This document shows, one piece after another, positions 279 through 60,031 of a stretch of DNA of 64,000 nucleotides. Both the position numbers and the translations under genes were made by a program. Position 1 is the stretch's first letter. The number at the start of each line of letters is the position of its first letter. The notes beneath the pieces were generated by a model, which was not told the DNA's origin, did not search any database, and saw only the letters and a program-made list of their open reading frames with translations. Source of the stretch: Polytrichum commune (Eukaryota; Streptophyta; Polytrichopsida; Polytrichales; Polytrichaceae); contig OX485804.1 of the NCBI GenBank assembly GCA_950295325.1, forward strand, positions 66,874,033 through 66,938,032, written 5' to 3'.

Positions 279-300
279 TTCACGAACGCGCGTTCGTAAA
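279..300. repeat. P1 palindrome inside a coding exon
   Basis: Arms TTTACGAACG/CGTTCGTAAA around CG, one mismatch. It lies in the last exon of the type A gene and is read in frame as LRTRVRES. Confidence 0.85.
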
Positions 301-1312
301 TCTTCGTCCTCGTGTATGGCAGCCCTTATCGCATCGTGGGAGTTGGCGGGGGTGGCAGTCAATTCAGGGGGCGGAGGACTCCCAGCTGGCGTTGGGTGTG
401 GTGCTGGTGGGTGCGAAGGTCCTCCGGGGAACAGGCCTGGAGGGGGGGAATGGGAGGGGTATCCTCCGGGGAAGGGGTAAGGCTGTTGTGCTGGCGCCGA
501 GAAGCTCTGCATATTTCTGAGCATCTCAAATATGGCGTCCGTCTTTGCTGCGGACTCCCGCAGCGCCTCCTGCATGCGGGCCATATTTCTTGCACTCTCC
601 TCTGCTGCAGCCGCCATTTCCTCCTTCATTTTTTGCTCTAGCTTGGCATTCAGCTCGGCAACGGTCAGCGCCTCCTCCTTCACCCGCTTGTTCTTGTCGT
701 AATCGACCCCCAGCTCCGTCATGATGTCCATGTCCCCCTCGTCTTCGTCCGACACCTCGATGATTGCTCCCTCAGGCAACTCCACGTACGGCGTCTTCTT
801 CATCCTCCTCCTTGTGTTCCGGAAGAGGTCCAAGGATGGACGCGAGCGTTGGTCGAGGAGGTCGAGGGTCTCCATCCTCGGAACGACGACGGGCCTTGGA
901 GACACTGACGTCGAACAGCCGCCAGGCGTGCCTAAGGCTTCCGCACCCGACACTCTAGCGGGGAGGACATCCTGGGTTGTCCCAGCCGAGGATCCTGTAT
1001 AGCCCCCCGGTGTCCCTTGGGGGTCAGAAGGGTGACCCGCTGGCGCCAACATCCGTAAAGGAGTGATGTTGAACGACTGCAAGATGGCGTCCACGTCCAC
1101 GGAGGGGGCGGGCTCGTCATCGTCTGTCTCCATGCCCGGCATGCCCTCGTCGACGGGCATGCTGAAGTCCTCCCTGGGGACACACATGTCATCGAGGTCC
1201 ATTGTGGACGCTTTCACCCTGTGGACCTGGTATTCATCCTCGTCTTGGGCATCAACGTAGTTATTGACGACCAATCCCAACATCTGTACCAACGATTCCA
1301 AACATGTCAGCA

Positions 1313-1334
1313 TATACGAACGTGCGTTCATAAA
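1313..1334. repeat. P1 palindrome, degenerate, intronic
   Basis: Arms with two mismatches around TG, in the 1284-1451 intron of the type A gene. Confidence 0.75.
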
Positions 1335-1410
1335 CATCAACATTGAGACAAGGCCAGATCAACGCAAAGGGGAAAATGCCACAACTATTATAACATTTGA
1401 ATCAATGAAA

Positions 1411-1432
1411 TTTACGAACGCGCGTTCGTAAA
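1411..1432. repeat. P1 palindrome, perfect, intronic
   Basis: Perfect 22-bp palindrome, centre CG, 20 bp from the splice donor of the 1284-1451 intron. Confidence 0.9.
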
Positions 1433-2808
1433 TCTAAGAATGATAGCTTACCATGGCCGTGTACATGAACTTGCTGCCTCCAAAGACGTTGTATACCGTC
1501 TCTCCAGCGATTGCCAAGCTCTGCAACACTGACACGTAGAACTCCAACCTGAGCTCCAGCGCGGGGAAAACCGTGTACAGTGTCTCCTGCAGCAGTTCCT
1601 TGGGAGGGGGTGAGGGATGTTGTATATCTTCTTGAAAGTACTGTTCGCCTTCACAGGCGCTCTCCCATTTCTGAGAGCATTGTACGTTAAGAAGATCAAG
1701 CTGACAGCTCCCACCTGCTTGTTGCCCCTGGCCTCGTTGATGGCCACGATCCCTTCCGTTTTTGCGGGCACGTAGGTGCTGTGGTAGATGCTGTATTCAA
1801 ATTTGATGGTATTTTCGTACAGCTCCGTCACAATGGATAGCTTCTCCTGTTCCACTATCCAAAGTCATACGTGAGGCTCCCTCATGTCAAGCGATCTGTA
1901 GTCTTGAAACTTTGCCATGAAAGGGTTGTAGAAGGGAAAATCCTTTGCCCCTTGCCTCGTACCTCCTGGGATCCCCCTGAAATCAATGAGGGCAAATGGG
2001 CAACCCCTGCGGTCCTCCCTCACCTCGGCCTTACTGATGGTGCCGTCCCACTTAGAAAAAGTGGTCCTCTCCAGCCCGGTGGTTACCAAACAAAATCTGG
2101 CCACTCCCTCGAATGTGGCCCTCCGCTTCCTCTCCAAAAAAATTATATACAACTCCACCTCCTGGGGATCTGTCTCTGCTTTCTTGGTCCGCTTGTTCCC
2201 CTTCAGCTTCAAGACGGAGGCGTGTTCCTTAACTAGCCTACGCATGGAAGAGCCGTTGATGTTGTACCCGACCTTGAACTCCTTCCATCCAGCCCAGTTG
2301 ATGTCCCTGTCGGCCTGGAAGAGTTTGTACTCCGGGACGAGTGCGCCCAACTCCCTCATTGCATTGGTCTTCAACTTGCGATGTTCGCACCACTTCTTGA
2401 TGGAGTACGTTCCGGGCCTGTGCTTTGGCCTCTTCAAAAATATCTTCGGGTAGGGGATTGTTCTCCCGACGGTGTTCCCAAGAGCATGCACTGCACATCT
2501 TTGCAATTCCGACTCCGTCAACCCCTGAAGCGGTCTAAAAAATTCCCTCAGCAACGGAGGGGCTTCCCCAGTCTTCTCCTTGCTATATTTTTCTTCAGTG
2601 TCGGGGTTGACGAGATCCCCCGCACTGTGAGCATCAAAAAATTGGGTCCACAAATCCCAGGTGTCTCTGTTGCAACAAATAAGACGGAGCTCACCCTTCA
2701 GCTCGAGCACCGACTTCGTTGAAGTGGACTTCATGTCGATGGAAGAGAATTTGTCAACCATCGCATCGCAAAACGCCTGCATTAGAAAGGAATGTCAGCG
2801 GGCAATCA

Positions 2809-2830
2809 AATACGAACGCACGTTCGTAAA
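2809..2830. repeat. P1 palindrome, intronic
   Basis: Centre CA, near-perfect arms, in the 116-bp intron 2777-2892. Confidence 0.85.
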
Positions 2831-2865
2831 TAAAATGATCAGGAATGTTGTAAAGGAACCTGAGA

Positions 2866-2887
2866 ATTACGAACGCTCGTTCGTAAA
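2866..2887. repeat. P1 palindrome next to a 5' splice site
   Basis: Centre CT. Five bases separate it from the exon end at 2893, so the site begins directly after the GTAAG of the donor on the minus strand. Confidence 0.85.
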
Positions 2888-3960
2888 CTTACCTTCCATT
2901 GTGGAGACTGGTTTTTCGCATTCTCCCTCTCCTTTGGTGGGCACTTGTGTGCCACCCACACGTCTCTCGCAGCCACTATGTTTGCTGCCCATGATGCCTC
3001 AAACGCCTTGATCTTATTCCCGGAATTTAAAAATGTTGAAATTTTCCGGAGTTTGTCCCAGTCGTCTGACCACACCAGGAACGCCTTCCAGTAGCGCAGG
3101 TCCCCCTTTAGCTCATGCTGGAAGTTATCATCCTTGAGGATGATCTGCGATGCCTCCAAGCTGTGCTGTCCATCAATAATCCAGAACTCCCCGTTCTGGA
3201 TTCTTGCCTAATCTTTCTCCGTGGGACGGGAAGTGAAACCCTTTGGCATAACGCACACAGTTTGCCTATCCCACTTCACGTTATTCATCAGGTTGTTGAT
3301 TTGCCACTTCACACCTCCGCTTTCACGTGACCTCACCACCCACTTGTTGGGGGATTTCTCGCATTTGAAGTAGTCCACGTTGAAGGTAAAGTGCCGTCCC
3401 ATGGGCCAGCAATCCTTCGAGTAATTGTTGAAGTCGCGAAGGATACGAGTCGCCTTTGCCGCATCAGGGTTTTCCCCCTTCTTCAAAGGAGTCTGCATGA
3501 CAGGCGGCGAGTTGACCTCAGTTGTCTCCGTGACACCAGACTTCTCCATATCGTCCCGAGTTCTTTTGGATGGCGTGGAGTGTCTGCTTGGCCCTTCTGA
3601 CAATCTGCTAGCTGAAGGCACTGGCCGCGGCGCACTTCTAGAACCTCCTGCTCCGGATGCAGTAGGTTTTTTAGGACTCTTCTTCTTGTTGTTGGCCTCC
3701 ACGACGGCACTGTTATACTTGGACATATTAAGGGCCAGTGCTGTCAGCTTCCTGGCTGTCCAATGCTGGCTGAGGCTGTACTTCGTGAAAAGGTTCACGA
3801 GGTCGAAATGCTTGGCATCCTCTACAACATTATTCTGTGCGTATGTATGGGAGAAAGGGTGCCTCCTGAAGTCCAGCAGGAGGTTGATGTGGTCTTTTTT
3901 GTTTTTCAAGTCCAAGATAACAAAATCACCCTGTGCCTCTATGGACTCTATCTCCGGGAA

Positions 3961-4000
3961 AAGCTATTTTGCGAGTGGTGAGCGGTGAGCGGTAAGTTTT
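3961..4000 (+). mobile_element. Left terminal inverted repeat of giant element M1
   Basis: AAGCTATTTTGCGA followed by the heptamer GGTGAGC repeated and GGTAA. The same sequence occurs inverted at 33037-33076, and a related copy at 52697-52745. It interrupts the type A gene: coding sequence resumes on the far side of the inverted copy. No target-site duplication is evident, and about 25 codons of the host gene appear lost at the insertion. Confidence 0.75.
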
Positions 4001-5091
4001 CTAGAATATTGAAATTTTGTGTGGTGGAACATGCCCTATGACCGCGGTGTAGAGCTAACTTTTGAAATATTTATTGACAAATTTATTGACAAAAAGAACC
4101 TATAACCGTGGTTGAGGAACCTATACTGTATTTGCTTGCACCTTCTCTTATAAGGTTTGTAGGTTGGGAATGGGTCTCGGATGGTTACAGGTTGTCATTT
4201 GAGGTGGATTAGGTCCCACTGGGAGAAGGCCTCGGACCCGAGGCCTCATGGCTTGAGCCCCTAAATTCTGATTGTGTTTAAAGTTGGTGGTTTCAGGGTG
4301 GGTCTCGGCATTTCAAGTGGAGGGGCTACTTTGCAGAAGGCTTCGGATCCGAGGTCTGTTGGCCTTGGGGTATGCTGTTTGATTTGAGGTCAAATTTATG
4401 GTTTCAGATTGAATGTAGGCATGCCATGTTTGGGTTTCATGTTTAGCTACATTCAACCTGACTCCATAAATTTGACATCAAATCATTGGTTTAAGGTTGA
4501 GTCTCGGCATGCCAAGTGGTTCAGATTTCATGTGGGAGTGGCCACTTTGGATATGGCCTCGGATTTCTTGGGGTTTGATGTTTGATTTGAACATTAAACA
4601 TAGGATGATGTCCATATTTTATGCACAAGCATTTTTTGGGTTATTGCATTCTTCTTCCATTCTATCTTCTCATTTTTTTATTCTTCCATTCTTCTTCCAG
4701 TCTATCTTCTCATTTTTTGTAATTCTAAAAAACGTATTGATATTCTATACTTATCATCTTTAATTTTTTGATTTAGTTTTTCGGTTTAGTTTTCCTTAGT
4801 CTTTGTTTCATGTTTTGATCTATATTTTTACAACTACATTTCTTTATCTTGTTTGGGTTTTGTTTTGAATTTTGTTACATGGATGATGCTATGGTGGATA
4901 ATGAGGTAGTTTACCTCTATGTCTTATTGAATAATAGAGTGCAAGGAGGGTTTAGGGTAAGAGTGTAAGAAGGCATTACAAAACATAATTCACTGTCTAA
5001 GGAAAACCATGAAGATTACCGCACTAAACGGACAATTAACAATCAAATGCAAAAATATATTATTATGCAAGCAATAAGACACAAAATTCTA
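4001..5091. other. M1 left subterminal region, no gene
   Basis: No coding sequence is seen. It holds the M subterminal motif CCTATRACCGYGG at 4035-4047 and 4099-4111, and several sites related to the M palindromes, the best being a perfect inverted repeat AGGCCTCGG/CCGAGGCCT around AC at 4227-4246 and another at about 4341-4354. The region 4600-4870 is AT-rich. Confidence 0.6.
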
Positions 5092-5637
5092 CTAAGACAT
5101 ATAATCGAAATCACAATTATCAGATAATGCTATAGAGACTTTAGAATCTATACTATCTGCATCTGAAGATCCTTCATCCTCAGACTCAACAACTTCTAAA
5201 TCAACATACTCTATACCGCTTAGCATCAACTCCTTAGGTCTAAATGTACGATATGAACCTTCCGCTAATTCATTGGCAACGTCATTTGCGTATGAAGGGA
5301 GCCGCCATGACTTTGGAGGGCTTGGATAGAACTTAGGGTCACAAAAAAAAGGGCGGTGACTAGGGTATCTCAAATTACCGCTTCTGCAAATGCAAATGGC
5401 AACATGGTCATAAAACCGCCTCATATGAAAGCAAATAAGAAAATATATCACTAGTAGTAGAAATAGTAGCTATACTCACTTACTAAACCTTGATTTCTTC
5501 ACGATCTTCTGAACAACAATGATTTCGCTATCTGGATCCTCTGACATGACAACGTCTCTTGATTTCACTTCTATGGCCGAAGCATATCGAATTAGAGGAG
5601 CGATCAAGGCTTCAAAAATTGCCTTGTCAGCCTCTAA

Positions 5638-5667
5638 TGCCGCAATGTGACGGTTCACATTGCGGCA
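5638..5667. repeat. Exonic inverted repeat, 13-bp arms
   Basis: TGCCGCAATGTGA and its exact reverse complement, separated by CGGT, inside the type B exon 5489-5684. Confidence 0.8.
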
Positions 5668-6837
5668 CGCATGAATAGAAACTCCTGCAAAATAAGAAAA
5701 CAATGAAGTTCAGTTCTCAAACAACATAAAAATTAATTAACATGAAATGGGCAACGGTTATTTACTTAAACATGAAGAGATGTACAACGTACCCGTAGCT
5801 GTAGAGCAGTCTAGAACAATATCCCCGGGTGAAGAACATGCCTGAATGAGCATCTGTATAAGGGCGAGGGATTTTTCGCGAGGACCACACCAAGGGGTAG
5901 ATCCATCCATTAACTGATCCTCCCTTGACACCAAGTTCTGGAGGATGTCATCCCGTGCCACATCAACCCCGTGACGGTCTAGTGCAGGGATGTGTTGAAA
6001 GCAAAATCTTGAAGCACGCACCTCCGGAATGCTCCTCACAACTAAAGTTATTCCAAACCTCATGGTCTGCAGATTACAAAAACAGTTAATAACTTTACTT
6101 ACGAAATAAGATAAAAATCATTAAGCACATTCTAGCAAATGAAATGGAAGATTAATTCCACAAGATTTATAACATAAGATACAGCTATCAATCAAATTGG
6201 CAATAAGTCATATCATAAAATAGACTCATAGTCAAGACTGGATTAATTGGGGACGTCAGGTGAAGCTTGTTCATCCCCCACCACTCCTTGCGAACAACAA
6301 ATCCATACGTGGAACAGTACCCAAGAATGATTGACTTTGTAGACATTCGAAAAGGATGGAACAAAATTATCGCCCCATCGTCTTGGAGGTGATGATCTGC
6401 GAAATCAAAGATTGTTTGAAACCAATCCTCAGGTTCTATGTTCCAGGCGGGAATAGACGAAGGTGGATTCGAAATTCCTGGAACAGGAAGGCCCTCTGGA
6501 AGATCTGCAAGAATCAAGTCCACACAGGGTACTTCCGCAGCAGATCCCTTGTAGCGTCGGCCTTTGTCACTTGAGTGCTGGGCATGAAAATAAATTTATC
6601 AAAACTCTGACAAGAAAATCAAAGAATGCACACATTCTAACTTGACACCGTTCTGAATTAATGTGAATCAATTAATTGACTTTGAGATCAAATATTTGAG
6701 AAGGAGCTGTGTATGTAATGAAATCGCATATAACATACAAAAACATATAGAAGTCAACGACTTAAGCAAGTGCTGAAGTTTTCATACAATGAAAATTAAC
6801 AAAGAAATGCGTTGGATGTCATTGTAATTTCCAAATG

Positions 6838-9829
6838 GCAATGACATTAGTGGATGTCAATTTCAGATTCCATTCAACCAACTATTAAACTCAGCCTAAA
6901 CATACTAACCTCATTTCAGAATACATTCAACCCACTGATTCACTCAACCTAAGCATAACTAACCTCATTCAGATCATATTCAACCCACTAATACACTCAA
7001 CCTAAGCATAACTAACCTCATTTCAGATAATATTCAACCCTCTAATACAGTCAACCTACACCTAACTAGCCTCATTTCAGAAAACAATCAATTTCAGATT
7101 TGACTCAACCTACTTAACTATCTGCCCCAATATGGTTGTCTCGGTCCCGAGACACCTATTTGCATGACTAGAACTCAATTTCAGATTCCATTCAACCAAC
7201 TATTAAACTCACCCTAAACATGCTAACTTCATTTCAGAATACGTTCAAGCCACTACTACACTCAACCTAAGCATAACTAACCTCATTTCAGATCATATTC
7301 AACCCACAAGTACACTCAGCCTACACCCTAACTAGCCTCATTTCAGAAAACATTCAAGTTCAGATTTGACTCAACCTACTTAACTATCTGCCCCAATATG
7401 GTTGTCTCGGTCCCGAGACACCTATTTGCATGACTAGAACTCAATTTCAGATTCCATTCAACCAACTATTAAATTTCAGACTTCACATACTAACCTCATT
7501 TCAGAATATATTCAACCCATTAATTCACTCAACCTAAACAATACTAACCTCATTTCATAATAAATTCAACCCAATAATGAACTCAACCTAAGCATAACTA
7601 ACCTCATTTCAGATCATATTCAACCCACTAATACACTCAGCCTACACCTAACTAGCCTCATTTCAGATAATATTCAACCCTCTAATACAGTCAGCCTACA
7701 CCTAACTAGCCTCATTTCAGAAAATAGTCAATTTCAGATTTGACTCAACCTACTTAACCATCTGCCCCAAAATGGGTGTCTCGGTTCCGAGACACCCTTC
7801 TCCATGCTAGATTTCAATTTCAGATTCCATTCAACCAACTATTAAATTTCAGACTTAACATACTAACCTCATTTCATAATATATTCAACCCATTAATTCA
7901 CTCAACCTAAACAATACTAACCTCATTCCAGAATAAATTCAACCCACTAATGACCTCAACCTAAGAATAACTAACCTCATTTCAGATCATATTCAACCCA
8001 CTAATACAGTCAACCTAAGCACAACTAACCTCATTTCAGATAATATTCAACCCGCTAATATAGTCAGCCTACACCTAATTAGCCTCATTTCAGAAAACAT
8101 TCAATTTCTGATTTGACTCAACCCACTCAACCATCTACCCAAAATGGTTGTCTCGGTCCCGAGACACCGTTTTCCATGTCTAGAATTCAATTTCAGATTA
8201 CATTCAACCCACTTTTGAAGTCAACCTGAACATAACTAACCTCATTTTAGAAGACATTCAACCCACGAATTCACTCAACCTAAACATATCTAAACTCATT
8301 TCAGAATACATTCAACCCACTAATGAACTCAACCTAAGCATAACTAACCTCATTTCAGAATGCATTCAACCCACTAATACACTCAACCTAAGCATAACTA
8401 ACCTCATTTCAGATAATATTCAACCCTCTAATACAGTCAGCCTACACCTAACTAGCCTCATTTCAGAAAACAGTCAATTTCAGATTTGACTCAACCTACT
8501 TAACAATCTGCCCCAAAATGGGTGTCTCGGTCCCGAGACACCCTTGTCCATGCTAGATCTCAATTTCAGATTCCATTCAACCAATAATAAAATTCCAGAC
8601 TTAACATACTAACCTCATTTCAGAATACATTCAACCCATTAATTCACTCAACCTAAACAATACTAACCTCATTTCAAAATAAATTCAACCCACTAATGAA
8701 CTCAACCTAAGCATAAATAACCTCATTTCAGATCATATTGAACCCAGTAATACACTCAACCTAAGCATAACTAACCTCATTTCAGATCATATTCAACCCT
8801 CTAATATAGTCAGCCTACACCCTAACTAGCCTCATTTCAGAAAACAGTCAATTTCAGATTTGACTCAACCTACTTAACAATCTGCCCCAAAATGGGTGTC
8901 TCGGTCCCGAGACATCCTTGTCCATGCTAGATCTCAATTTCAGATTCCATTCAACCAATAATAAAATTCCAGACTTAACATACTAACCTCATTTCAGAAT
9001 ACATTCAACCCATTAATTCACTCAACCTAAACAATACTAACCTCATTTCAAAATAAATTCAACCCGCTAATGAACTCAACCTAAGCATAAATAACCTCAT
9101 TTCAGATCATATTGAACCCAGTAATACACTCAACCTAAGCATAACTAACCTCATTTCAGATCATATTCAACCCTCTAATACAGTCAGCCTACACCTTAAC
9201 TAGCCTCATTTCAGAAAACATTCAATTTCATATTTGACTCAACCTACTGAACCATCTACCCCAAAATGGGTGTCTCGGTCCCGAGACACCCTTCCCCATG
9301 CTAGATTTCAATTTCAGATTCCATTCAACCAACTATTAAATTTCAGACTTAACAACCTAACCTCATTTCTAAATACATTCAACAAATTAATTCACTCAAC
9401 CTAAACAATACTAACCTCATTTCAGAATACATTCAACCCACTAATAAACTCAACCTCAGCATAACTAACCTCATGTCAGATCATATTGAACCTACTAATA
9501 CACTCAACCTAAGCAAAACTAACTTCAGTTCAAATCATATTCAACCCACTAATACAGATAGACTACACCCTAACTAGCCTTATTTAAGAAAACATTCAAT
9601 TTCAGATTTGGTTCAACCCACTGAACCATCTGCCCCAAAATGGGTCTCTCGGTCCCGAGACACCCTTCTCCATGCTAGATTTCAATTTCAGATTCCATTC
9701 AACCAACTATTAAATTTCAGACTTAACATACTAACCTCATTTCAGAATACATTCAACCCACTAATTCACTCAACTTAGGCATAACTAACCTCATTTCAGA
9801 TCATATTCAACCCACTAATAGTATGGTAC
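6838..9829. repeat. Intronic satellite array A with P2 inverted repeats
   Basis: Tandem copies of a monomer of about 53 bp (CTAACCTCATTTCAGA... ATTCAACCCACTAATACACT) grouped into higher-order units of about 267 or 372 bp. Each unit is closed by GTCTCGG-NN-CCGAGAC. Such sites begin at about 7138, 7404, 7778, 8150, 8524, 8896, 9270 and 9648; the centre is usually TC, with TT at 7778, and the 9648 copy has one mismatch. It fills one intron of the type B gene. Confidence 0.85.
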
Positions 9830-16600: not shown

Positions 16601-17149
16601 CCTCTAGCCTAATTTCAGATTACAGTCACCCTTAACCCTCACTCTCGCCCTCACCCTAAACCCCTAAGCAAAAAAATTACATTCAAGTATTTATGTGTGG
16701 GACAACCTACCTCTTCCCCGATGTGCTGCTCTTCATTATCCATGTTGGCTTCGCGAAGATCACCAATATCATCCCGGCGATCGAATTCGCCTAGTGTCTG
16801 TTAAGTGTATATGTCATGTGCTCGTTAGCTATGTAGTTGGCCTAAGACATTGTTAGCATTGGAAAGAACCCTTACCCTTAACCCAAACCCCTAAAATTCA
16901 CCAATTGATAACAATCTTTACAAACCTGCTCCTCACTATGATCTGATGTTGAGGCACTGGAGGTTGCCTGAGGTTGAACCTGTGTCTGCGTCACTCCCTG
17001 TTCCAGCTACTCCAACCAAACCCAATTCACAATCCCACACCAAACATAGAACACATTGCCCACACAACAAGGGAAGTTAATGGTTCTCAACTGTTCTAAC
17101 TATCCGTGATATAAATTAACATTATGATTGCACATAAAAGAATATCAAA

Positions 17150-17600: not shown

Positions 17601-17699
17601 ATAGCATGCTAACACCACACATCCATTGGATAGTGCGACCCAAAATGTTCTTGCCTATGGCCCACAACCCTACGCCTACTATGGCCTATCTAGCCTTGG

Positions 17700-49198: not shown

Positions 49199-49424
49199 AA
49201 TCTGGGCACTTTCCGGTTCGCTCGCCGTTACTAGGGAAATCCAGGTTAGTTTCTTCTCCTCCACTTAGTGATATTCTTAAACTCAGCGGGTAGTCTTTCC
49301 TGATCTGAGGTCAGTCTCACGGCTCAGTCTCACGGCTTAGTTGTCTCAGATCCGAGACAACTAAATTTCAATCATCCATGGCCATATTTCATCCCAAGTT
49401 TTAGGGTTTCCATTTTGTCTCGGA
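49199..49424 (-). repeat. Second 25S 5'-end copy joined to a P5 site
   Basis: Repeats the first 110 bp of the 25S fragment, then CAGTCTCACGG repeats and a P5 palindrome with one mismatch (site 49342-49361). The whole block recurs at 50108-50320. Confidence 0.8.
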
Positions 49425-50107
49425 GATTCTGACCAGTTCATACGAAGTGACCAACATTTAATGTTGAGTGAGTCGAGGTTTAATATCTTTTTCAGTGCTA
49501 ACTCAACATTTAGCCAGTGATTCATTCCACATTGATTCAACTTATTGTTCATCCTTTTAGGTGATTCACAAAAACAAAAACTAAAATTGCAAGCCTGTCT
49601 TTGGTTTGTAGTTTAATGTGATTGAATGAAATCAGCGTTGATACATGAATTTAGAGATTTGTGATATTGTTAGCCAGTGAGATTCAAACTTCACTCTTTA
49701 GCTCCAATCTCCAATCTCCAAACTGCAATAGTAATCTGCAAAGCTAACCTGGAAAAACAAATCTGTCTGGAAACTACTCCTGCTCCACAGTACCTGAAAT
49801 ATTGAAAGAAAGAATGCATCAAACTGTACAATGCCGTATTTCGCATGTGGGGGGCTACTCAGGGTATGTCAGTTGAAGTGAAGACAATGATGAGATAGAT
49901 GAGGAAAGAAGAAAAAGGTGGAAAAGGTTGGGCTTGCCTGCCACCAGACTCCTCTCAAAATCCGCCATTTGTATACTCTCTACCAATATCATAATATTTC
50001 TATGCTGGAACTTGGAAGCATCTGAATCAACAGCCAGGAAAATTGAATATTCAGAACTGCTCATAGTCAATACATTATAGGTAAGAGGTAGACAACCCTT
50101 ACTCAGT
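49425..50107. other. Intron sequence between the two rDNA/P5 blocks
   Basis: No feature recognised. Confidence 0.3.
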
Positions 50108-50320
50108 TCCGGTTCGCTCGCCGTTACTAGGGAAATCCAGGTTAGTTTCTTCTCCTCCGCTTAGTGATATGCTTAAACTCAGCGGGTAGTCTTTCCTGAT
50201 CTGAGGTCAGTCTCACGGCTCAGTCTCACGGCTTAGTTGTCTCGGATCCGAGACAACTAAATTTCAATCATCCATGGCCATATTTCATCCCAAGTTTTAG
50301 GGTTTCCATTTTGTCTCGGA
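50108..50320 (-). repeat. Third 25S 5'-end copy joined to a P5 site
   Basis: Near-identical to 49211-49424. Its P5 site is a perfect 28-bp palindrome at 50233-50260. Confidence 0.85.
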
Positions 50321-50952
50321 TCTTGTTGTCTCTTAAAGGTTTTGATGTTCCTGTAAGGTTAGGATTGCAATACATGTATTTCAAAATCGAAGTTCTGGTG
50401 TATTGGAGTCTCGAATTAGAGTATCCAATGAATGTCAACAACTCCGATTAAGAACAGTAGCCACTTAAGACCCATCTACCTTATAGCAGACTTACCCAAA
50501 CACAGGAATATTACTGATGTTTTAAGCATCTGTAATACAGCAGAAAAAAAGAGATGTAGGGGAATTGCAGAAGAAATTGTTGACAGGTAGTGAGATCGAT
50601 TACAACCCTCATCGTTGTTATATCGAGCTTGAACTGGTCGTACCTTTACTTAATCTGATGCAGGTGAATTGGGGTTGTTTTTTTTTTGTTTTTTTTTTCA
50701 TCTTCTTCCTCATGAATATAATGGATCCTCTGCTATGATTACAGCTTGTTGACTTTCTGAAAATCCCAAGTTGTGTGATTTATATTGCAAATGTGGCATT
50801 GGCTTATACCAAAAGAGATGAGTGTTGAGTTATGTATCCCCCCACACAAAGCGCACGAGAGGTTGGATATATATGCCTCAACTCTCAAAACTCTTCCTAG
50901 TCTCCCTTTGTTACCGGGGGATCCCACCTGTCAGGTTCCTTGCGCCTCAATT

Positions 50953-50982
50953 AAGCCTTGTCTCGGATCCGAGACAAGGCTT
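50953..50982. repeat. P5 palindrome extended to 30 bp
   Basis: The core is flanked by AAGCC on the left and GGCTT on the right, giving a perfect 30-bp palindrome. Confidence 0.9.
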
Positions 50983-51679
50983 TCGGGTCCCAACAGGTAT
51001 GCTCACACTGTATATGGATCTGTTACACAACAGGTATACACAACAGGTATGGATCTGTTCATTTTTGTTTGAAGCTTTTGATTCCTGGTTGTGATTGATT
51101 CATTTCACCCTCAATTTGATTCCCCAATTGTGATTGATCATAATTGGGGAGACCTATATCACGACCACTTAATGAGCACAAGAATCTTCACTTTCGACAA
51201 CGAATAGGATGGTTCATACGTGCTCCAAAGTGTACGAGGAAAGTGGCTACGGCCTTGATTTGGATTTGCTAGCCGTCTTGTGCTAGTGGCGGGTTTCATA
51301 TCCTAGGAGACGTGGCGTAGACGGACAAAGTAACCATTCAAGGCGCACCTACCTTAGAGTTTGGATGAGCACAAGTGTAGTTACAAATCGGCATTGGGCA
51401 AGCAAAGCAGTGACCGCCACCCGGCTAATTCATAAATGCTGAGCTCATCACTGCTCGGGTGCAAATTCCATTGGTTGTGTTCCGGGACTTGAATGTGATG
51501 GTCGATGGAGAGCTTAAATCCAGGTACTGATGCAGCCAATTAGTGACGGACACACCACACTGGTTATGGGCAGGCAGGCGCAGGGATGGATTGATGACAT
51601 GTCGCGTGTAGGGGTTTAGGGGTATAGGGTATCAGATTGGTATACACCAGAGACGCTCCTGGAATCTAATACTCGCGTG

Positions 51680-52440
51680 TAGGAATGGTTGTCTCGGATC
51701 CGAGACAAGGGTAGAGGGGTGCTGTTTGTTTTGCTATTTTTGAAAATGCTCTTGGTGTCATTTCCGTGGGTTTTAAGGTAGTTAGAGCTTGTGTATATCT
51801 ATAAGAGAAATATGTTAGTTTGCCTTCCTGACTGTGCGTTAAATGGGTTGTCTCGGATCCGAGACAAGGGTGGACGGGTACTATTTCATGCGTTTTTTTA
51901 AAAAAAATGCTCTTGTCCTCATTGCTTGGTTGTAGTTTTGTTTTTCGAAAATGCTTTATTTCTCAATTCGTTAAGGGACTCACTCCAATTTTGTGCGTTA
52001 AATTTGTTGTCTCGGATCCGAAACAAGGGTGGACGGGTACTATTTGTTTTGTTTATTTTGAAAATGCGCTTGTTCTCATAGCCTTGGGTTCTAAGCGGCA
52101 GGGCTTCATGTACATCAGAGAAACCCGTCAGTTTTCCTCTAGGATTGTGCATTAAATGGGTTGTCTCGGATCCGAGACAAGGGTGGAGGGCTACTATTTC
52201 ATTTTCTTTTTTTTGAAAATGCTCTTGTCCTCATTGCTTGGTTGTAGTTTTTTTTTTCGAAAATGCTTTATTTCTCAATTCGTTAAGGGACTCACTCCAA
52301 TTTTGTGCGTTAAATTTGGTGTCTTGGATCCGAAACAAGGGTGGACGGGTACTATTTCATTTTCTTTTTTTCAAAATGATCTTGTTCTCATTGTTTGGTT
52401 TTAGTCTTTTTTTTTGAAAATGCTCTTATTTCTCAATTCT
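51680..52440. repeat. P5-bearing tandem repeats
   Basis: P5 sites near 51687, 51847, 52006, 52158 and 52319, about 150-160 bp apart. The last four are in repeats with ACAAGGGTGGACGGGTACTATT and AAAATGCTCTTG blocks. Two have arm mismatches (CCGAAAC). Confidence 0.85.
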
Positions 52441-52696
52441 CTTATCCATATGCGCAGATGACTCACGTTGAATGGAGGTTGAAGATGGTGGTTTAGCAGA
52501 GATTGAGGAGAAATTACGGAGAGCCGTGAGAGGCAATTCACATGAAGCAATTCAAAGTGCACTTGAATCTCCAAACTGTGAACTTGACGTGCCCTTGTGC
52601 AGGATGATTCCTATGAAGGATGTTAGAGAGCCCTTGAAGACTGACATTCAGAAGTTGAAGGCAGAGTTCTCTCGTGGGTATAGGCGGGCAGGGGAG

Positions 52697-52745
52697 TGCT
52701 ATCTTATGAGCGGTGAGCAATGAGTGGTGAGCGATGAGCGGTAAC
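52697..52745 (+). mobile_element. M-type terminal repeat (left end of M3)
   Basis: GCTATCTTATGAGCGGTGAGC followed by further GGTGAGCGATGAGCGGTAACTT units, matching the M1 ends. The subterminal CCTATAACCGTGG is at 52795-52807. It cuts into the type B exon of M2. Confidence 0.7.
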
Positions 52746-52887: not shown

Positions 52888-55334
52888 TTATTGATCAGTA
52901 GTAGCACTAGACATGAAACTATCTTTTGCCTCGTCATCTATATATATTCGAGCACCTTTGCATTGCGAATTGATTTTGGAACTATAGCAAGATTCTTCAT
53001 TTGGATCCGAATCTTCGAGATTCAATATTGCAATTGCAACATTCTCGGCATATGATGGGAGACGCGGGCTACGGCTTGGACTTCGTAGGAATTGTCTATG
53101 TGCCCAAAACGGGAGACATGTCCTCTTTCCAATCGTATTCCTGAAATCAAATCGATGAAACATGTAAATAATGTGAAGAAATAAAAATGAACCAATGAAT
53201 TGAATGAAACGAATGAATTGAATAAAAATTTATTGTATTAAAACTTACTCACACTCAAATTCAAGCATCTCCTCATCCGAGAGGTCATCATCTTCTTTTG
53301 TGAGATCTTGTATATTCTCCTTAGATGACCCCTCTTTCAAAACGTTTTCCAAAAGCGGTTTCAATATGTGCTCAAACATGTCATTATCACCCTCAAATGC
53401 AAGAAGATGTCTGCCACATGCGCGTGTTGCTAGGATAGAAGCTCCAGTGGAACATGTCAAATCAACAACGCGTCCATTCGATGGTGTAAACAATTCAATA
53501 AGATCTTGAAAAAAAACGCGGCGATTTTTTATATGGCCCCCTCCAAGGTCTTCCCGATTTTTTAAGAAACATGTTTTTTTCATCCACAAAATTGAAAAGC
53601 AAGTTTATGCTTTTCAATCCAGTGCCAAAAAAAGTGGAGTTTGGTTGTCTCGTGGATTTTGTGGTAGTAAAATCCCTTACCAAGACATGAGCCATAAATG
53701 CCGGAGTCTACAAAAAAATGTAAATTGTGTTAAAACTATATACAATGCAAATAACACCAAAATAATTAAATATAAACAATTGTAATGTGTTATACTTACG
53801 GTGTAGGTTGGAGACTCTGGATCCTTGAACACCATGTACGAATTGAGGCAAATAAAAGTCCTAAGAACTTTCATGTTGCCGTTGTGTAAGGTTGAATTCA
53901 AAACCTTCTTGGTTTGCATATCGATAGCACAAAAAACTATGAGGACGCCATCATCAGACAAGATGGACTTGCACAAGGACATTGTTGCAACCATCCAGTT
54001 CTTGTCATATTTATTCCAAAGAGGAATTTCAGTAGGTCTATTGGAGAGGTTGAAGTCAAGACCGTCGGGAAATTGGAGAAAAACCAAGTCAACGGCAAAG
54101 GGAGTCGGACTTCCCATGACATGAAATTCGCGATTGTCATTGAACTGAAATACCACAACATATCACAATATAAGACACAAAATAAAACCCAAATGAAAGT
54201 AAGAACATTAGAGAAAATACCAAAACAATAATACTTACGTTTTCAATAAATTCCCGCCATTGGATCCACTCAGGAGGGCCTACATCCACCCCTTCAGACT
54301 TATTTTTGACAGCAGTAGATCGAGCAAACGAGAACGTGAGAAAGTTCTTCAGTATGAATAACTCTTTTATCAAAATATCCGTTGGCGCACGATGAATAGC
54401 GTCATAGGTGCTGAAGTAATGAAATTCCAATACATCGCACCTAGACTTTGAACTTTCGTTTCCAAGTGGATTCTTATCCAAATCATTGGAAAGAACAAGC
54501 AATTCTTCATGTTGTGAAATTTCCGATTGACCTTGTATTTTGGTTTCAGGAACATGTTTCCTCTTACGACGTTTTGTCTCTTTTGGTTCTAGCTCTCTAA
54601 GTTTAAGCTGCACAATTTGTGCTTGTAAAATTGCAGTATCACGAGGATCCACATTTTTAGCATCATTTATCTGACGGATTGTCTTCTCACTTGACGGACA
54701 TGCATCATTAGGACAATCAAGATACCAACCACAATCCTCATAGTGTGGGAGCGACCAATCCAAACAAATCTCAGTAGTGAACATGCATGAATCTCCTGCA
54801 CCAGTGTCACGCCAATTTGGGAAAAAACGAGGTTCCCCTATAATGCATTTATGTGGAATCAAAACATATCGAAAATACCTACACACAAAAATATTGTAAG
54901 TCAAATATTCCATGATAATTTGACAAATGAAATCAAAAAAATCAAACAAATAATAAGATTAGGTTGTACCTGTATAATACATGTTTTATGGCAAGATCAA
55001 TATTAGGTTGCTCATCCCAACCGTTGTGTTTTTTAACTTTTCTGCTTTGGAATTCACGATAGAATATTGAATTGAAAGCCGCAAACTTCCAGGTTTGGAT
55101 ATACTCGGAGAGAGTAGGCACATCTGCAGGCAACTGAAGAGGAGATGAAAGAATACTTTGAAGCTCTTCGATAGTTTTTTTTTCCAACTGTGCCCAATAT
55201 GTAGACTTTGATAACCAATCATCAAGTGCAGAATCAGAGAGGGGCGATTTCGGGAAATACAATGCATCTTTGTCAAATCTATTGCCATTCCAAAGCTTGA
55301 GCCATCCAACTTTGACTTCTGCATCCACATTAAA
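52888..55334 (-). pseudogene. Type B ParB-methyltransferase-like gene of M3, 3' half
   Basis: Exons 54970-55334 (truncated), 54239-54878, 53800-54144, 53249-53707 and 52888-53140. Homologous exon by exon with the M1 copy: GWYLDCP, then VDLVFLQFPDG at the DPPY position, GPYKKS, and GRVVDLTCSTGAS at the FxGxG position followed by GRHLLAFEGD. One intron present in M1 inside the SAM motif is absent here. Both catalytic motifs are degenerate. A run of eight A (53509-53516) shifts the frame by one base between GPYKKS and FFQDLIELF; seven would restore homology, so it may be a sequencing error. The 5' half, including the ParB-like domain, is cut off by the X2 end at 55335. The 3' end faces the M3 terminal repeat, as in M1. 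Confidence 0.7.
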
Positions 55335-55360
55335 CACTATATTCGTTAATTGGAGACTTT
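55335..55360 (+). mobile_element. X-type element terminus (left end of X2)
   Basis: CACTATATTCGTTAAT then TGGAGACTTT and the inverted AAAGTCTC. Matches the X1 right end over about 100 bp in inverted orientation. It interrupts the type B exon. Confidence 0.65.
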
Positions 55361-55555
55361 GGAAAGTCTCAAAATAAATTGGACCCGTAGTTTCGGATGC
55401 GAATATTGTGAACATGGGGAACATGGGGAACAATGGCAACATAATGTTTTAAAGATCCATATGTGATGAATATATATGTTTCTAAATATAGTAATTGTTC
55501 AGTTGATAATCAAAACTATGCCAACACAATATTCCAATGACACGAAATTGCAAAT

Positions 55556-55850
55556 TAGCATCTGCAATATAATTATATAGTTTAGGGTCCACATCCGTAA
55601 AAACACAGACATAAAAAACATTTGGATTCCACATCCGTAAATCAATGCATCCATGCAATATAATTATATAGTTTAGGGTCCACATCCGTAATAACACAAA
55701 CATAAAAAACATTTGGATTCCACATCCGTAAATCAACGCATCCATGCAATATAATTATATAGTTTAGGGTCCACATCCGTAAAAACATAAACATAAAAAA
55801 CATTTGGATTCCACATCCGTAAATCAATGCATCCATGCAATATAATTGTA
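55556..55850. repeat. Tandem repeat of about 91 bp carrying P6 half-sites
   Basis: Three copies, each with two CATCCGTAA half-sites (CACATCCGTAA context) and GGATTCCACATCCGTAAATC. It lies downstream of the X2 DUF7869-like gene. Confidence 0.8.
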
Positions 55851-55962
55851 ATCTATAAAATTGCTATAAAATGTGTCTAATATAGTATTCGACCCCAATG
55901 TCATATATTTTATGAAAAACCAATACACATTCAAATATCTTTGGTCCAAACCTACGTCAATA

Positions 55963-58900
55963 TCATTCACCATCTTCATCTTCTGCTTCATTTCCATTCT
56001 CGACATTGTTTTCTGCAGCAGCAATACGTGCCAAGTTGTCTTTGGCAAAATCTATATGTTTTTGGGAGATGGTCATTGTTTCAGTTTTGGAACCTTTGCG
56101 TGGTTTCCAAGCACAAAGTATGGTATCCGTGTTTATCCATATTGGTTCGTATGCTAAGTCCATTGTCCATTTGAAACCTTTTTTCGTGTCCCACCTTAAA
56201 TATGTGCGGAGCACATTTTGATCTTTGGTGCTTGGACGGCAATATTCCACCTCAATTTGACGAAAATTTGGGCTAGTTGGAACAAAATTTGGTGATGACA
56301 ATGCTTTCACCAACCAAATCGGTTTAGGATGTTCCTCATCTCCAGGACGTACGAGGACCATATAACCTTCGTAGCAATCAATAGCCACACGAAATGATGG
56401 AGCCGGGCGATTACGAGCAGGGCCAACATAATGGTCGTCCGCCGCGAACTCTTCACGGACGTCCCCATTGTTGAAGAACATGGCCTCAGATTCCACGATT
56501 GTCACTCGGCTTAGTGGCCAAAAACCTTGTGTCAAACATGATGGTCTATCGTCTTCGGGTGCTAGCAACGCTGAGTGGATGCGATCCCAATACGCAATCA
56601 ATGGTTCGTGGGTATCCCGAACACGTCTTGTGATGTCTTCCTCGCACAAATCTTTCCAGTACTCGATGAATCCATATATACCTTTGATGATTTCTGGTCC
56701 ATTCCTCATGGGGTTGGGTTTGCAAGGCTTCGGCTCCCCATCAGGTAGCATACATTTGCCATCTTCGTTTTGGCGCCATACGAGTATCCCTTCCTCTGGG
56801 CCCCAATTCGGGGAGGTACACAAAACTTTGAATTGCATGGCCGGCAGACCATCATCACGCATATAGAATCGGAATTGTTGAGCCTTGGTATGGCCCACTA
56901 AGCGGTCACCTCCTTTAAGAATGAATGGTTTGATAAACGATTTGAAATCGGGCACTTCTTCAATCAAATGCGGGATGACTGGCACATTATCCAAATCCAT
57001 GTACGATTTCATGAGAAGAGGAATTGTGGGAAAATCATCCTCGTGCAACTTCATACTCCAATGTCCGAATGAAGCGTCAATGTCATCGTGCGTGTGGCCA
57101 ACCATCAAAAAAGACACAAACACTTCTTTGAAAATGCCCTTGGCTACGAGCAATGACCAAAAACAAAATACGTATCGACATTTGTTGTCCTTGGCACAAT
57201 TATCAAGTTGCACGTGTAGAGTTGGAGGCAAAGGTTTAGCAAGAACGGGTTGTTCAGGCGGTTCTTGCAGTGAAGATAGGCAAACCTCCTTCCCCTCTAG
57301 CACAGCCTCATAAATCGGTGGTGTTCCACATCCAACAAAAAGAGCACGAGAGGATGATGTGGGCGGACTCTCAAGATCTCGTAGAAGTTTTGCAAAAGAC
57401 CCTACGGTATGATTGGCGTCGCCATGATAGAAATCCAAGCCATAATGTGCATATTTCACGTCCACATGACCATGTGCGATCATACCTGCATTTAGCCACA
57501 CAAATCGTATATATGAATGAAATTCAAAAATTTCCCCAAGCAAGCAAAAAAATGTACACTTACGGACGTACATCCGTAAATCTTAACAATGAGTATGTGG
57601 GCGCGCAAAAAATAAATGTGAAAACCAACAAACCTGTGACAAATATTGGAAGCTTGAAATATCCATCTGTAGCCTTTATTTTCCGCGCATAACAAGGGCA
57701 CGCCGTCTTTGCATGGTCCATTTTGTCATGAATGATTGTCAAAACCTCATTCGGCCTCATTATCGATAATGCGCGATTCTTGTAGTAGTCTTGACGGTGT
57801 GCCTCCTGGTTGTTGACATGCTCAATGTATTTCAGTTGATGTCGGTTGTGGGACTCAGTCCCAATGGGATGTGCATCTCGAAGGCCTTTATATTTCTCAC
57901 AAGCAGAACACCTGGCAAACTTATCCCCAGGTCTCTTCGTAATATATTCTGCGAATTGTTGATTCTTGATCACACTCAATTTTGACAATGAAATCGGCCC
58001 ACATCCAGCATTTTCGCCAACTTCATTAACATCCATAAGTATGTTCTTCCATTTTGTCCCTGTAGGCAAAACCATCTGAACAACCTTTTCCCCTGACGGC
58101 AAAGTCCGCGTCTTGTGTGGCATCGCATCTGCCAATGGCATAATGATGGTTGATAGTGTTGCAGCCGCTTGGAGTGTTGCCTCCCTAGGCTTCTTTGTGC
58201 CAGAGTTGCCATGGAACCGAGAACGGCGTCCTTGCATCGAGTAGTTCCGGAACCTATAAAAATCTGCCTTTGAAACTGCATGTATAATGTACCATGCCTT
58301 GCAACATATCTCTACATTTTCCAAGGTCACAACCTTACGACCTTCGACATCAAGGTGCATGTTGCGATGGACTTCAAGTTTCTTTGCAGATCGCATATGA
58401 AAGTCCGCGAGCCACATCTCTTGTCTCAAAGATTTGATCTTGTCACGGGGAAATAGTTGGCAACATCTCTTTGCACAACAATCCTTTGTTGCTACGGACC
58501 TAATAGATGCATCTCCCAATGTTTGATCTCGACGACGTTGCGTGGGTTCACGAGGTAAACGAACGGAATCATATTTACGCCGACCTATTCTAGGGCGCAT
58601 TGTGGAGAACAAAGCGGATTGCATTTGATCAAAACGGCGGGAATGATTCCACAAGCTGACACCATCATGAAGAACACTGCGCAACGGCCATCGACGAAGA
58701 GAGAATCTCCAACCAGAAGGCACTTCCAACGGATGTAAGGAATTCAAAATGCACACCCCCACATCTTCTTCCCCAAGGGGATTTGCATCAATACAATCCG
58801 TAGGATTCGAGTTCCGACAAACACCATCAGCCACGGGGACGCCACATCCATTGAGGAGGACGACATCAAGATCAATCCACTGCTCCCGCGAATAACCCTC

Positions 58901-59038
58901 ACATGGTGGGAGGAATTCATCCTCTACATTGGCGACACCAATTGTAGTATCTTGTTCCACGACAACTTCAAACTCGCTAGCATAGCTTGACGCTTCCGAC
59001 GAAAAATCAACCCCACTATCACCGACGTTGGAATCCAT
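55963..59038 (-). CDS. DUF7869-like transposase-type protein of X2 (intact, 975 aa)
   Basis: Exons 57634-59038 and 55963-57485 with a GT/AG intron of 148 bp that contains a P6 site (57559-57580). The start MDSNVGDSG at 59038 lies five bases after an acceptor-like CTTGTAG, as in the X1 copy. Same block order as that copy: KDCCAKRCCQLFPRDKIKSL, FARCSACEKYKGLRDAH, KMDHAKTACPCYA, LHVQLDNCAKDNK (Asp near 563) and VGHTHDDIDASFGHW. The two proteins are closely similar through the core and differ mainly at the acidic N-terminus. No breaks seen, so X2 may be recently active. The 3' end faces the X2 terminus 630 bp away. Confidence 0.7.
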
Positions 59039-59183
59039 GGCCACTACAAGAAAGCCAAATGAAGAGTATGTCAAAATATCCCATTCAATAAATGTCATGG
59101 ATAGCCCTAACGCTTATTATTGTCAATGAAACACAATGTGAACACTAGTGGCTTTCATGGCTTGGAAACAAAGCTAGCATTGG

Positions 59184-60031
59184 TATACGAACGTGCGTCC
59201 ATATACCTCCATGTAACAACATCAGCAGCGCAAGCACACGCGCATACGGATACATTTATGTGTTCATAGGAGCGGGAAGGTGGAGGCAACAAAAACATCA
59301 CTGGTTTATGGACGCGCATCCGTTAATCGGCTCGTGCACAGAGTTCAGTATCATGCTCAACCACAACATAGGTATACGGACGCGCGTCCATAAACATCCG
59401 TATGACAAACATCAATGTAGTCCTAGATACAAGTTCAAGGAAGCAAGACGTCCTCCAAAAACGGCCATGTGTACACAACCCTGACGACTCATGAAATTTG
59501 AGGAGGATTGAACACGGCCATACGCGCTTCCTAAAATGTTTAATCAATGTCAAAATATTTTACTATGACATAGGGTGATGTAGGCTAAGGGATGCGAGCT
59601 CCCAACCCTTCCTGACCGTACAGTCTCAGTGCAGTCTCAGTCTACATGGCACATGGTCAACATTATGGTAACAAAGGTTTACAGGTTTACGGACGCGCGT
59701 CCGTAAACCTCTGTGGACCTCATTTCTAGCATAAAGACAGTGCTCGACGGAATACACCTCTGTGGACATCATTACTAGCCTAAATACAATGTCCAACGCG
59801 CCAAGGGGTTTACGGTTTACGGACGCGCATCCGTAAACTTCCATGGTAATATATTGTCGTTGTGGTACTCTACACGACAGGTGGTGTAGGTGACCTACAG
59901 AACTATGGCACCAAAGGTATGCAGGTTTACGGACGCGCGTCCGTAAACATCCATGTACATGAGTATTGGCTCAAACAAATAAAGGTTCAATGAACCAATA
60001 TGTTTAAGGTTTACGGACGCGCGTCCGTAAA
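59184..60031. repeat. P6 palindrome cluster upstream of the X2 gene
   Basis: Seven sites: 59184 (hybrid of P1 and P6 arms), 59305, 59373, 59686, 59816, 59926 and 60010. Arms TTTACGGACG/CGTCCGTAAA; centre CG in all except TG in the first. The 59686 site extends to a perfect 28-bp palindrome (59683-59710). Confidence 0.92.

Follow-up and report, generated by a model that had tools for sequence, protein, structure and literature searches.

Several large transposons in the Polytrichum commune genome are dotted with short palindromic DNA sites whose arms are specific to each element lineage. These sites look like self-recognition tags for a DNA-binding protein that the element itself encodes, much as in the self-protecting transposons known from Arabidopsis, but with other parts. 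We examined a window of 64,000 nucleotides (contig OX485804.1 of assembly GCA_950295325.1, positions 66,874,033 to 66,938,032), for which it had been predicted from sequence alone that five families of inverted-repeat sites (X1, X2, X3, M1 and M2) share one design, with constant arms ending in CG or CGG around a variable central dinucleotide, and that each family stays inside one nested element. This observation is confirmed by our analysis. Exact sites occur in the window 7 times for X1 (centres CG twice, CA, TG three times and AT), 3 times for X2 (all CG), 10 times for X3 (AT six times, GT twice, GG and AC), 17 times for M1 (TC, CC and TT) and 6 times for M2 (all AT). The additional centres listed in the original prediction (TT, GA and CT for X1, and TT for X3) come from sites with imperfect arms.

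The sites are far more numerous than expected by chance. Palindromes with arms of 8 or more and a spacer of 0-8 (where one site can count at several spacers) number 225 in the window, compared to 10, 6 and 5 in three first-order Markov simulations, and at a spacer of 2 there are 63 compared to 0, 1 and 0. Genome-wide, exact sites number 2909 (X1), 1147 (X2), 9731 (X3) and 1383 (M1 and M2 together), whereas each backward control gave 0. A plant-type telomere repeat unit and an LSU rRNA piece fit a plant, and the look of that rRNA tentatively fits a bryophyte.

X1, X2 and X3 are lineages of one transposon type of ~17 kb, with a shared inverted repeat, a 4-bp target duplication, a DUF7869 gene (putative transposase) and a divergent accessory gene that we call P. 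M1 and M2 belong to another type, with a SWIM-like transposase and an accessory protein that is ParB-like plus methylase-like. The window is organized as follows, with strand given where one applies.

1-42398: X1 element, cut by the window start and split by the M1 insertion at ~3956-33083, with its right inverted-repeat end at 42383-42398 (terminal repeat match at 42383)
60-3963, minus strand: X1 accessory gene P, in exon pieces with a stop at 3210; ParB-like stretch at about 2881-3489
1411-1432: X1 site inside the P gene, between open reading frames; imperfect X1 sites lie near 282-300, 2811-2842 and 2867-2899
33353-33950: X1 site array on the 5' side of the P gene
37773-38422: X1 site array upstream of the DUF7869 gene
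38770-41993, plus strand: X1 DUF7869 gene (putative transposase) in two open reading frames; PF25273 match, E 3.3e-41, in 40359-41993
3956-33083: M1 element nested in X1, with inverted ends GGGAAAAGCTATTTTGCGA... / ...TCGCAAAATAGCTTCGTCCC and no intact target duplication seen at this junction
5521-6526, minus strand: M1 methylase-like exons of the accessory gene (LADLPEG and VLDCSTATGT; 17.4 bits, below cut-off)
7138-9287: M1 site array inside the accessory gene, followed by a half-site at 9655
12048-12653, minus strand: M1 ParB-like exon (PLCRMMAMPMVRP ... FFVCDGNHRRQAW), a motif seen by eye without a Pfam hit
12838-16278: M1 site array on the 5' side of the accessory gene, followed by half-sites to 16549
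30399-32513, plus strand: M1 SWIM-like transposase remnant, related to 42948-46579 (43-54% protein identity in pieces); SWIM-like by eye, no Pfam hit
17148-29134: X3 element nested in M1, with an intact left end (inverted repeat at 17148) and the DUF7869 end missing
20451-20862: X3 sites at the 3' part of P, of which the two at 20774 and 20843 lie in an open reading frame
22050-22213: X3 site array between P open reading frames, with a 36-bp period
23666-23779: X3 site array between P open reading frames
25407-25529: X3 sites on the 5' side of P, one exact and others imperfect
20482-25102, minus strand: X3 accessory gene P (broken copy)
42948-46579, minus strand: M2 SWIM-like transposase gene; SWIM-like by eye, no meaningful Pfam hit
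47912-52340: M2 sites, 6 exact (GTCTCGG AT CCGAGAC) plus imperfect ones
52484-52714, plus strand: M2 accessory gene with a ParB-like start, cut off near 52700 where M-type end-like sequence begins
53323-55133, minus strand: fragment of another M-type accessory gene with methylase-like motifs (15.2 bits, below cut-off)
55333-64000: X2 element, with its DUF7869 end at the inverted repeat at 55333, running out of the window
55963-59113, minus strand: X2 DUF7869 gene in two open reading frames; PF25273 match, E 6.2e-39, in 55963-57582
59686-60031: X2 site array upstream of the DUF7869 gene

Three details of the original prediction required correction. First, the two X1 blocks (1-~3955 and ~33084-42398) are one element split by a ~29-kb insertion, because alignment to the copy at C1:2266001-2284000 resumes across 3955/33089, with about 80 bp of X1 missing at the junction. 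Second, M1 and M2 share arms because they are the same element type. Third, centres are mixed in X1, X3 and a further family, F4, but are nearly fixed in X2 (CG in 28 of 32 contexts) and in families F5, F6 and M2 (AT). When seven exact patterns were counted, each stretch held one family only, except for locus L013, which carries three F4 sites plus one that is one base away per arm.

The design of the sites is well conserved compared to their surroundings. Anchored on one exact half-site in one orientation, the opposite half matches at 0.93-1.00 per family (0.78 for M2), while the flanks agree with their own majority at only 0.43-0.68. An unsupervised scan found further arm families, mostly with a CG core around two looser bases. 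There are departures from this core: locus L032 has three sites with TG-AT-CA in place of CG-AT-CG, and locus L071 has arms ending in CGT. Of 31 sampled DUF7869 loci, 21 carry at least one exact site of one of six families. In all 21, the best match to the DUF7869 N-terminal query starts at residue 71 or before, whereas 9 of the 10 loci without sites have no match or one that starts at 156 or later.

The original prediction had named, as tests, whether arms co-vary with an element protein and whether sites are concentrated at the elements. Arm families follow the DUF7869 tree, although locus L035, which falls in the X3 clade, has no site. Because transposase and accessory gene sit on the same element, this agreement cannot say which protein reads the arms. 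Listed sites lie within 20 kb of an X landmark in 76 of 86 cases for X1, 47 of 50 for X2 and 81 of 100 for X3, against 8-16% of the sequence, whereas M sites do so in 3 of 50 cases against 7%. Five of eight listed X3 clusters (19 of 100 sites) are not near an exact landmark. Within the elements, 45 of 56 sites in three long X elements (11-25 internal sites per element) lie between the two divergent genes, 11 lie in P and 0 in the DUF7869 gene, with gene bounds that we set from open reading frames.

The accessory proteins carry a ParB-like motif that was recognized by eye (DGNHR in M, DGQHS in X). In the M-type relative at locus L045, an N6_N4_Mtase domain scores 32.4 bits, above the 26.7 cut-off, and a DGNHR motif lies ahead of it. 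The same order is seen in M1, where the accessory gene lies on the strand opposite to the transposase, but where the methylase score is below cut-off. In X-type P, GQHS is kept in 4 of 4 rows, and subthreshold Pfam hits to GmrSD_N (E 0.044) and DUF6551 (E 0.047) span that motif, whereas the methylase resemblance is motif-like only. The ParB assignment is weak. No curated ParB model was listed at E up to 10 for five ParB-like pieces (although HMMER filters drop most weak hits), with the M-type ParB-like exons and the X3 piece hitting no Pfam model and the X1 and X2 pieces hitting only below cut-off. A hit to the DGQHR model (E 0.14) lies just after the motif, among other chance-level hits. Profile comparison of the X and M ParB-like stretches gave E 0.011 at 3.9% probability over 20 columns, and comparison of the methylase stretches gave E 0.27.

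Searches for more distant relatives gave little. PDB searches with the ParB-like query and its profile returned only unrelated chains, and the L045 methylase query hit methyltransferase chains at E 0.32 and 0.42. Fold prediction gave no usable model for the P region at 22225-23640 (one sequence, pLDDT 32) or for the ParB-like region (two window sequences, pLDDT 37). Scans of viral contigs with DUF7869 and with two P profiles found no relatives. A phage tblastn search with the L045 methylase found five weak hits (E 3-8), four of which lie under methylase or methyltransferase annotations, the fifth record being unannotated. L045 itself shows no recurrent palindrome in 7 kb, and neither do 5 of 9 further methylase-hit loci.

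Taken together, these observations are best explained, in our view, if the palindromes are double-stranded DNA sites each bound by a symmetric dimer, with one half-site per subunit, a CG-containing core that most families share, outer bases that carry lineage specificity, and two middle bases that matter less. The likeliest reader would be the element's own accessory protein, namely P in the DUF7869 elements and the ParB-methylase-like protein in the SWIM-like elements. By binding arrays between its two divergent genes and inside its own gene, this protein would mark copies of its own lineage and not of others, and would probably keep their promoters active against host silencing, as VANC does for VANDAL. 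We consider this hypothesis only slightly more likely than not. Our data establish the sites, their design, their restriction to element lineages, their placement, the conservation of their arms, and the occurrence of one design in two transposon types with unlike transposases. In contrast, it is inferred from sequence alone that the accessory protein binds, that it binds as a dimer, that the accessory proteins of the two types are kin, and that the outcome is anti-silencing.

The interpretation that accompanied the original prediction is partly supported. A symmetric-dimer site private to the element lineage, serving as a self tag, fits the conserved arms, looser centre and drifting flanks, the agreement of arms with the transposase tree, and the clustering at elements. 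The comparison with ParB-parS, which had been made on site design alone, gains a possible link through the ParB-like motif and the methylase domain that follows it in M-type elements, but the sites are not parS. The suggestion that a central dinucleotide might indicate a serine recombinase site is not supported. Such sites occur once per element end with a fixed central dinucleotide, whereas these sites are internal and present in many copies, their centre is mixed in X1 and X3, and the ends of the X elements are inverted repeats with 4-bp target duplications.

Among the alternatives, the one that survives best, though it seems unlikely, is that the sites are operators for plain auto-regulation, whereby the accessory protein switches the two divergent promoters on or off without any role in silencing. 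The location of most sites between the divergent genes is consistent with this possibility, and DndB, a ParB-superfamily protein, has been claimed to be a transcriptional regulator (PMC10853773). However, the many copies, which also lie between exons and in an open reading frame, are more than an operator needs, and simple feedback does not need lineage-private arms. Slightly less likely still, the sites might be bound by the transposase (DUF7869 or SWIM-like) to assemble the transposition complex, like the subterminal repeats of Spm or Ac. One array lies next to the transposase gene and arms track the DUF7869 tree, but the same design occurs with two transposases that show no similarity beyond a chance-level hit (E 0.44 over 12 residues). 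Furthermore, the sites are internal, several kb from the ends, and also lie in the accessory gene and in an open reading frame, and the inverted repeat is the same in X1, X2 and X3 while the arms differ.

It is very unlikely that a host protein reads the sites to silence the elements while the arms change to escape it. The turnover of arms between lineages would fit an arms race, but a target of silencing should be lost, and yet the opposite arm is kept in all families but M2 while flanks drift. Equally improbable are recombinase targets (given the many copies per element and mixed centre), RNA hairpins (palindromes can fold, but the arms are paired up to a 2-base centre, too short for a loop, and within a family stay the same rather than compensating) and functionless tandem-repeat drift (some sites lie in tandem repeats, but flanks are not kept as the arms are).

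Among the closest known systems are the VANDAL transposons of Arabidopsis and their VANC anti-silencing proteins (PMC5735166; PMC10398659). As in the X elements, short lineage-specific motif arrays lie in non-coding parts, upstream of the transposase gene and in introns of accessory genes (although two X3 sites also lie in an open reading frame), the motif differs between related families, and arrays are partly in tandem repeats. Likewise, the accessory protein is less alike between lineages than the transposase, which we observed for one pair only (X1/X2, 55% for the P stretch compared to about 71% for DUF7869). However, VANC motifs are short and arrayed in one orientation (YAGTATTAY; AGTTGTCC) rather than dyads. 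VANC carries DUF1985, which was not listed in Pfam scans of the P and M-type pieces, with the C-terminal tails only partly scanned. VANDAL is a Mutator-like group with 9-bp target duplications (PMC6446971), whereas X elements have DUF7869 and 4-bp duplications in 11 of 11 paired ends (10 of 10 fetched end pairs plus the X3 copy).

An accessory protein with a ParB-like part and an N4/N6 DNA methyltransferase has been described from giant transposons (Sola1-1_Ec32 of Ectocarpus, said there to be known also in green and red algae), and binding and modification of the element's own sequence was suggested (PMC12477816); this is the nearest prior report. In what we saw of that report no binding site is named. 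Here, private palindromic arrays are present, the motif-IV-like stretch is altered (D[IL]P. in place of the DPPY of active enzymes), and the X-type protein is far diverged or unrelated. The 4-bp AT-rich target duplications and short inverted repeats resemble those given for Sola2 (PMC3627910), although none of our results ties DUF7869 to Sola transposons. Bacterial ParB-parS and the Bacillus cereus ParB-methylase (PMC5512222) offer a dyad site of about 16-22 bp, a ParB-like motif (here by eye) and, in M-type elements, a ParB-like part ahead of a methylase domain, but our arms differ from parS, no curated ParB model was matched, and no helix-turn-helix, CTPase or ParA was shown.

Both the protein class and the VANC logic are in print, but the palindrome code that would join them was not found in our literature searches. 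Searches for DUF7869, for moss transposons with methyltransferase domains and for a Polytrichum genome returned no paper, and one for ParB with plant transposons returned a single unrelated paper.

A more speculative possibility, which we regard as improbable but not excluded, is that two unlike transposon types have taken up ParB-methylase-like proteins and turned them, many with an altered catalytic motif, into a modular self-recognition code with a CG core plus changeable outer arms, altered in matched one-base steps in both half-sites. In this view, the protein would load at these parS-like sites and spread, clamp-like, along kilobases of its own element to keep silencing off, which would explain how such systems clear whole elements from few sites.

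To our knowledge, how a selfish element turns on its own copies without turning on the rest of the genome is known mainly from one Arabidopsis group. Here the same anatomy appears in other transposons with other proteins, and the site families, which are closely related and have over a thousand exact copies each for the four counted, form a ready test set for how a DNA-binding protein and its sites change together. Moreover, because candidate sites are now named, the published suggestion that ParB-methylase transposon proteins bind their own element becomes directly testable.

The window lies in a genome of 407.8 Mb and 64 contigs and holds a series of nested DNA transposons, which we designate X1, X2 and X3 (one type) and M1 and M2 (another):

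From beyond the left edge to 42398: an X1 element.
About 3956-33083: an M1 element inserted in X1.
17148 to about 29134: an X3 element, truncated, inserted in M1.
To the right of these: an M2 element with further M-type debris.
From 55333: an X2 element.

The original prediction held that these elements carry inverted-repeat sites with arms particular to each element, and this observation is confirmed. Exact sites with the predicted arms occur in the window 7 times for X1, 3 times for X2, 10 times for X3 and 23 times for the M elements. Palindromes with arms of 8 or more and a spacer of 0-8 (one site can count at several spacers) number 225, compared to 10, 6 and 5 in three simulated sequences, and those with a spacer of 2 number 63, compared to 0, 1 and 0. 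Genome-wide exact counts are 2909 (X1), 1147 (X2), 9731 (X3) and 1383 (M), with 0 for each backward control.

X1, X2 and X3 share an end sequence, the first 16 bases of which match exactly at 17148, 42383 and 55333 of the window, and AACACTATATTCGTTAA has 1183 exact copies genome-wide. An X3 copy at 2112817-2129768 of contig C1 is about 17 kb long with a 28-bp perfect inverted repeat. We selected 10 further end pairs lying 16-18 kb apart, of undetermined arm family, and all 10, as well as the X3 copy, are flanked by 4-bp direct duplications. Copies of X1, X2 and X3 have a DUF7869 gene (PF25273 at E 3.3e-41 and 6.2e-39 in window X1 and X2, respectively; by DNA similarity in the X3 copy) and a divergent accessory gene, here called P. 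Of 56 exact sites in three long stretches, 45 lie between the two genes, 11 lie inside P and none lies in the DUF7869 gene, with gene bounds that we set from open reading frames. Two X3 sites lie inside an open reading frame of P. The X3 element also carries a NIF-type (CTD-phosphatase-like) domain beside P (window 19185-20030), where the X3 copy (L003) has an open frame of the same length, and a 565-bp direct duplication (92%) near its P end (window 17704-18872).

To search for additional families without naming arms in advance, we took the first 100 of 736 matches to a DUF7869 motif and retrieved 31 loci, all on C1 and chosen for different codon variants, and therefore not at random. A scan of these loci for recurrent palindromes recovered X1, X2 and X3 and yielded three more families, TTCCTCTCG (F4), ATCCACTCG (F5) and TTTCACTCG (F6). 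All six have CG-NN-CG at the core. In one F5 locus (L032, oriented positions 1128-1281), however, three further F5-like sites read TG-AT-CA in place of CG-AT-CG, changed alike in both halves, which could be CpG decay or a new arm type. By exact pattern, 21 of the 31 loci carry at least one site (19 carry two or more) and 10 carry none. In all 21, the best match to the N-terminal DUF7869 query starts at residue 71 or before. Of the 10 loci without sites, four have no match, five have one starting at residue 156 or later, and one (L035) is a real exception. None of these stretches mixes families except L013, which has three F4 sites and one site that is one base away per arm. X1 and X2 likewise differ by one base per arm, and so the arms seem to change by matched single steps in both halves.

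To assess constraint, we anchored on one exact half-site in a fixed orientation and counted distinct contexts only. The opposite half matches at the following means:

X1: 0.96 (59 contexts)
X2: 0.98 (32 contexts)
X3: 0.97 (84 contexts)
F4: 0.99 (15 contexts)
F5: 0.93 (9 contexts)
F6: 1.00 (11 contexts)
M1: 0.95 (28 contexts)
M2: 0.78 (9 contexts)

The lowest single arm position is 0.75 in X1, at its outer edge by an earlier two-strand count. In contrast, flanking positions agree with their own majority at only 0.43-0.68. The central dinucleotide is mixed in X1, X3 and F4, mostly CG in X2, and AT in F5, F6 and M2. This is the pattern of a protein-bound dyad rather than of repeat drift.

A tree of 25 DUF7869 N-terminal rows, comprising 20 of the 31 sampled loci, window X1, window X2 and three long elements, groups X1 (7 rows, 99/98), X2 (4, 100/99), X3 together with the site-less L035 (7, 100/99) and F5 with F6 (4, 99/99), and the F4 rows fall with F5 and F6 in one clade. 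Eleven loci were left out of this tree: L009, L011, L014, L020, L021, L027, L030, L033 and L036, which have no sites, and L023 and L039, whose matches were short. Among a subset of the distinct sites, 76 of 86 X1, 47 of 50 X2 and 81 of 100 X3 sites lie within 20 kb of a sampled exact X end or DUF7869 motif, which cover 8-16% of the sequence, whereas M sites do so in 3 of 50 cases, compared to 7%. By cluster, the values are 7 of 7 (X1), 8 of 9 (X2) and only 3 of 8 (X3), so the X3 figure rests on few large clusters. On the whole, the arms pass the test set beforehand, under which a random spread across elements with unrelated proteins, or equal density outside these elements, would have counted against them.

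M1 and M2 have a SWIM-like transposase gene (43-54% identity between the two in pieces; SWIM-like by eye, with no meaningful Pfam hit). On the other side of sites, they have an accessory gene with a ParB-like exon (PLCRM...VRP ... FFVCDGNHRRQAW in M1), followed in M1 by methylase-like exons, whereas the M2 accessory gene breaks off after its start. The relative at locus L045 matches N6_N4_Mtase over positions 1-216 of 221 at 32.4 bits, above the 26.7 cut-off, and window M1 reaches 17.4 bits. The motif-IV-like stretch reads DIPYG, DIPDG, DLPEG, DIPEG or DIPQG in most copies seen, where active enzymes have DPPY or the like, so many copies may be inactive. The ParB-methylase-like gene of L045 (1145-4457) has the fullest methylase match, yet no recurrent palindrome occurs in the 7 kb read. 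Of nine further loci chosen from the methylase hits (one of which, L072, gave no match to the L045 protein, and another, L074, is a near copy of L045), four show recurrent palindromes (GTGTCTCGG, AGGCCTCGG, GGGGTTTCGG, GGCCTCGT) and five show none. Three of these four have the core TCGG-NN-CCGA, whereas L071 departs from it. A single GGCCTCGG AC CCGAGGCC site in M1 (window 4228-4245) is of the arm type found repeated in one of the methylase-hit loci (L066). Strong N6/N4-methylase matches were also found on the low-numbered ends of contigs C10 and C12 (98.5 and 68 bits), perhaps reflecting bacterial contamination.

Other sequences reside among these elements. An antisense piece of eukaryotic large-subunit rRNA lies inside the M2 region (window 48263-49161; Rfam RF02543, 426 bits), with a duplicated 129-bp stretch at 49061-49311 and another copy at 50107-50320. 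A repeat of about 975 bp (window 14787-15760) is present once in the window, three times in the X1 copy (L005/L006) and once in the M1 copy (L007), at 94-95% identity, and is probably a separate small mobile element.

Which protein might read the sites? The same design accompanies two transposases that share no similarity beyond chance level, and so a transposase is the weaker candidate. What the two types may share is the accessory protein. In X-type P, an aligned stretch keeps GQHS in all four lineages compared, with subthreshold hits across it to GmrSD_N and DUF6551, and a hit to the DGQHR model lies just after it. GmrS is described as ParB-like (PMC5512222). The M-type ParB-like pieces hit no Pfam model at E up to 10, and thus there the assignment is by eye. 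A direct profile comparison of the X and M ParB-like stretches aligned the motif, but at E 0.011 and 3.9% probability, and a comparison of the methylase stretches gave E 0.27. Fold predictions did not yield a usable model. Common descent of the X and M accessory proteins is therefore possible but not shown.

VANC proteins of Arabidopsis VANDAL elements bind short motif arrays upstream of the transposase gene and in introns of accessory genes, with motifs that differ between related families, and cause loss of methylation (PMC5735166; PMC10398659). A ParB-like plus N4/N6 DNA methyltransferase accessory protein of giant transposons (Ectocarpus Sola1-1_Ec32) has been suggested to bind and modify the element's own sequence (PMC12477816). 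We found no report of private palindromic arrays with such proteins in literature searches that covered open-licence papers only. The interpretation in the original prediction, that a symmetric-dimer site serves as a self tag for the element's own protein, is supported in part. Our analyses establish the sites, the constraint on their arms and their association with element lineages, whereas binding by an accessory protein and any resulting function are inferred. Taken together, these observations reveal a real, strongly constrained and lineage-private dyad code, for which a function inferred by analogy with VANC is the best reading on present evidence.
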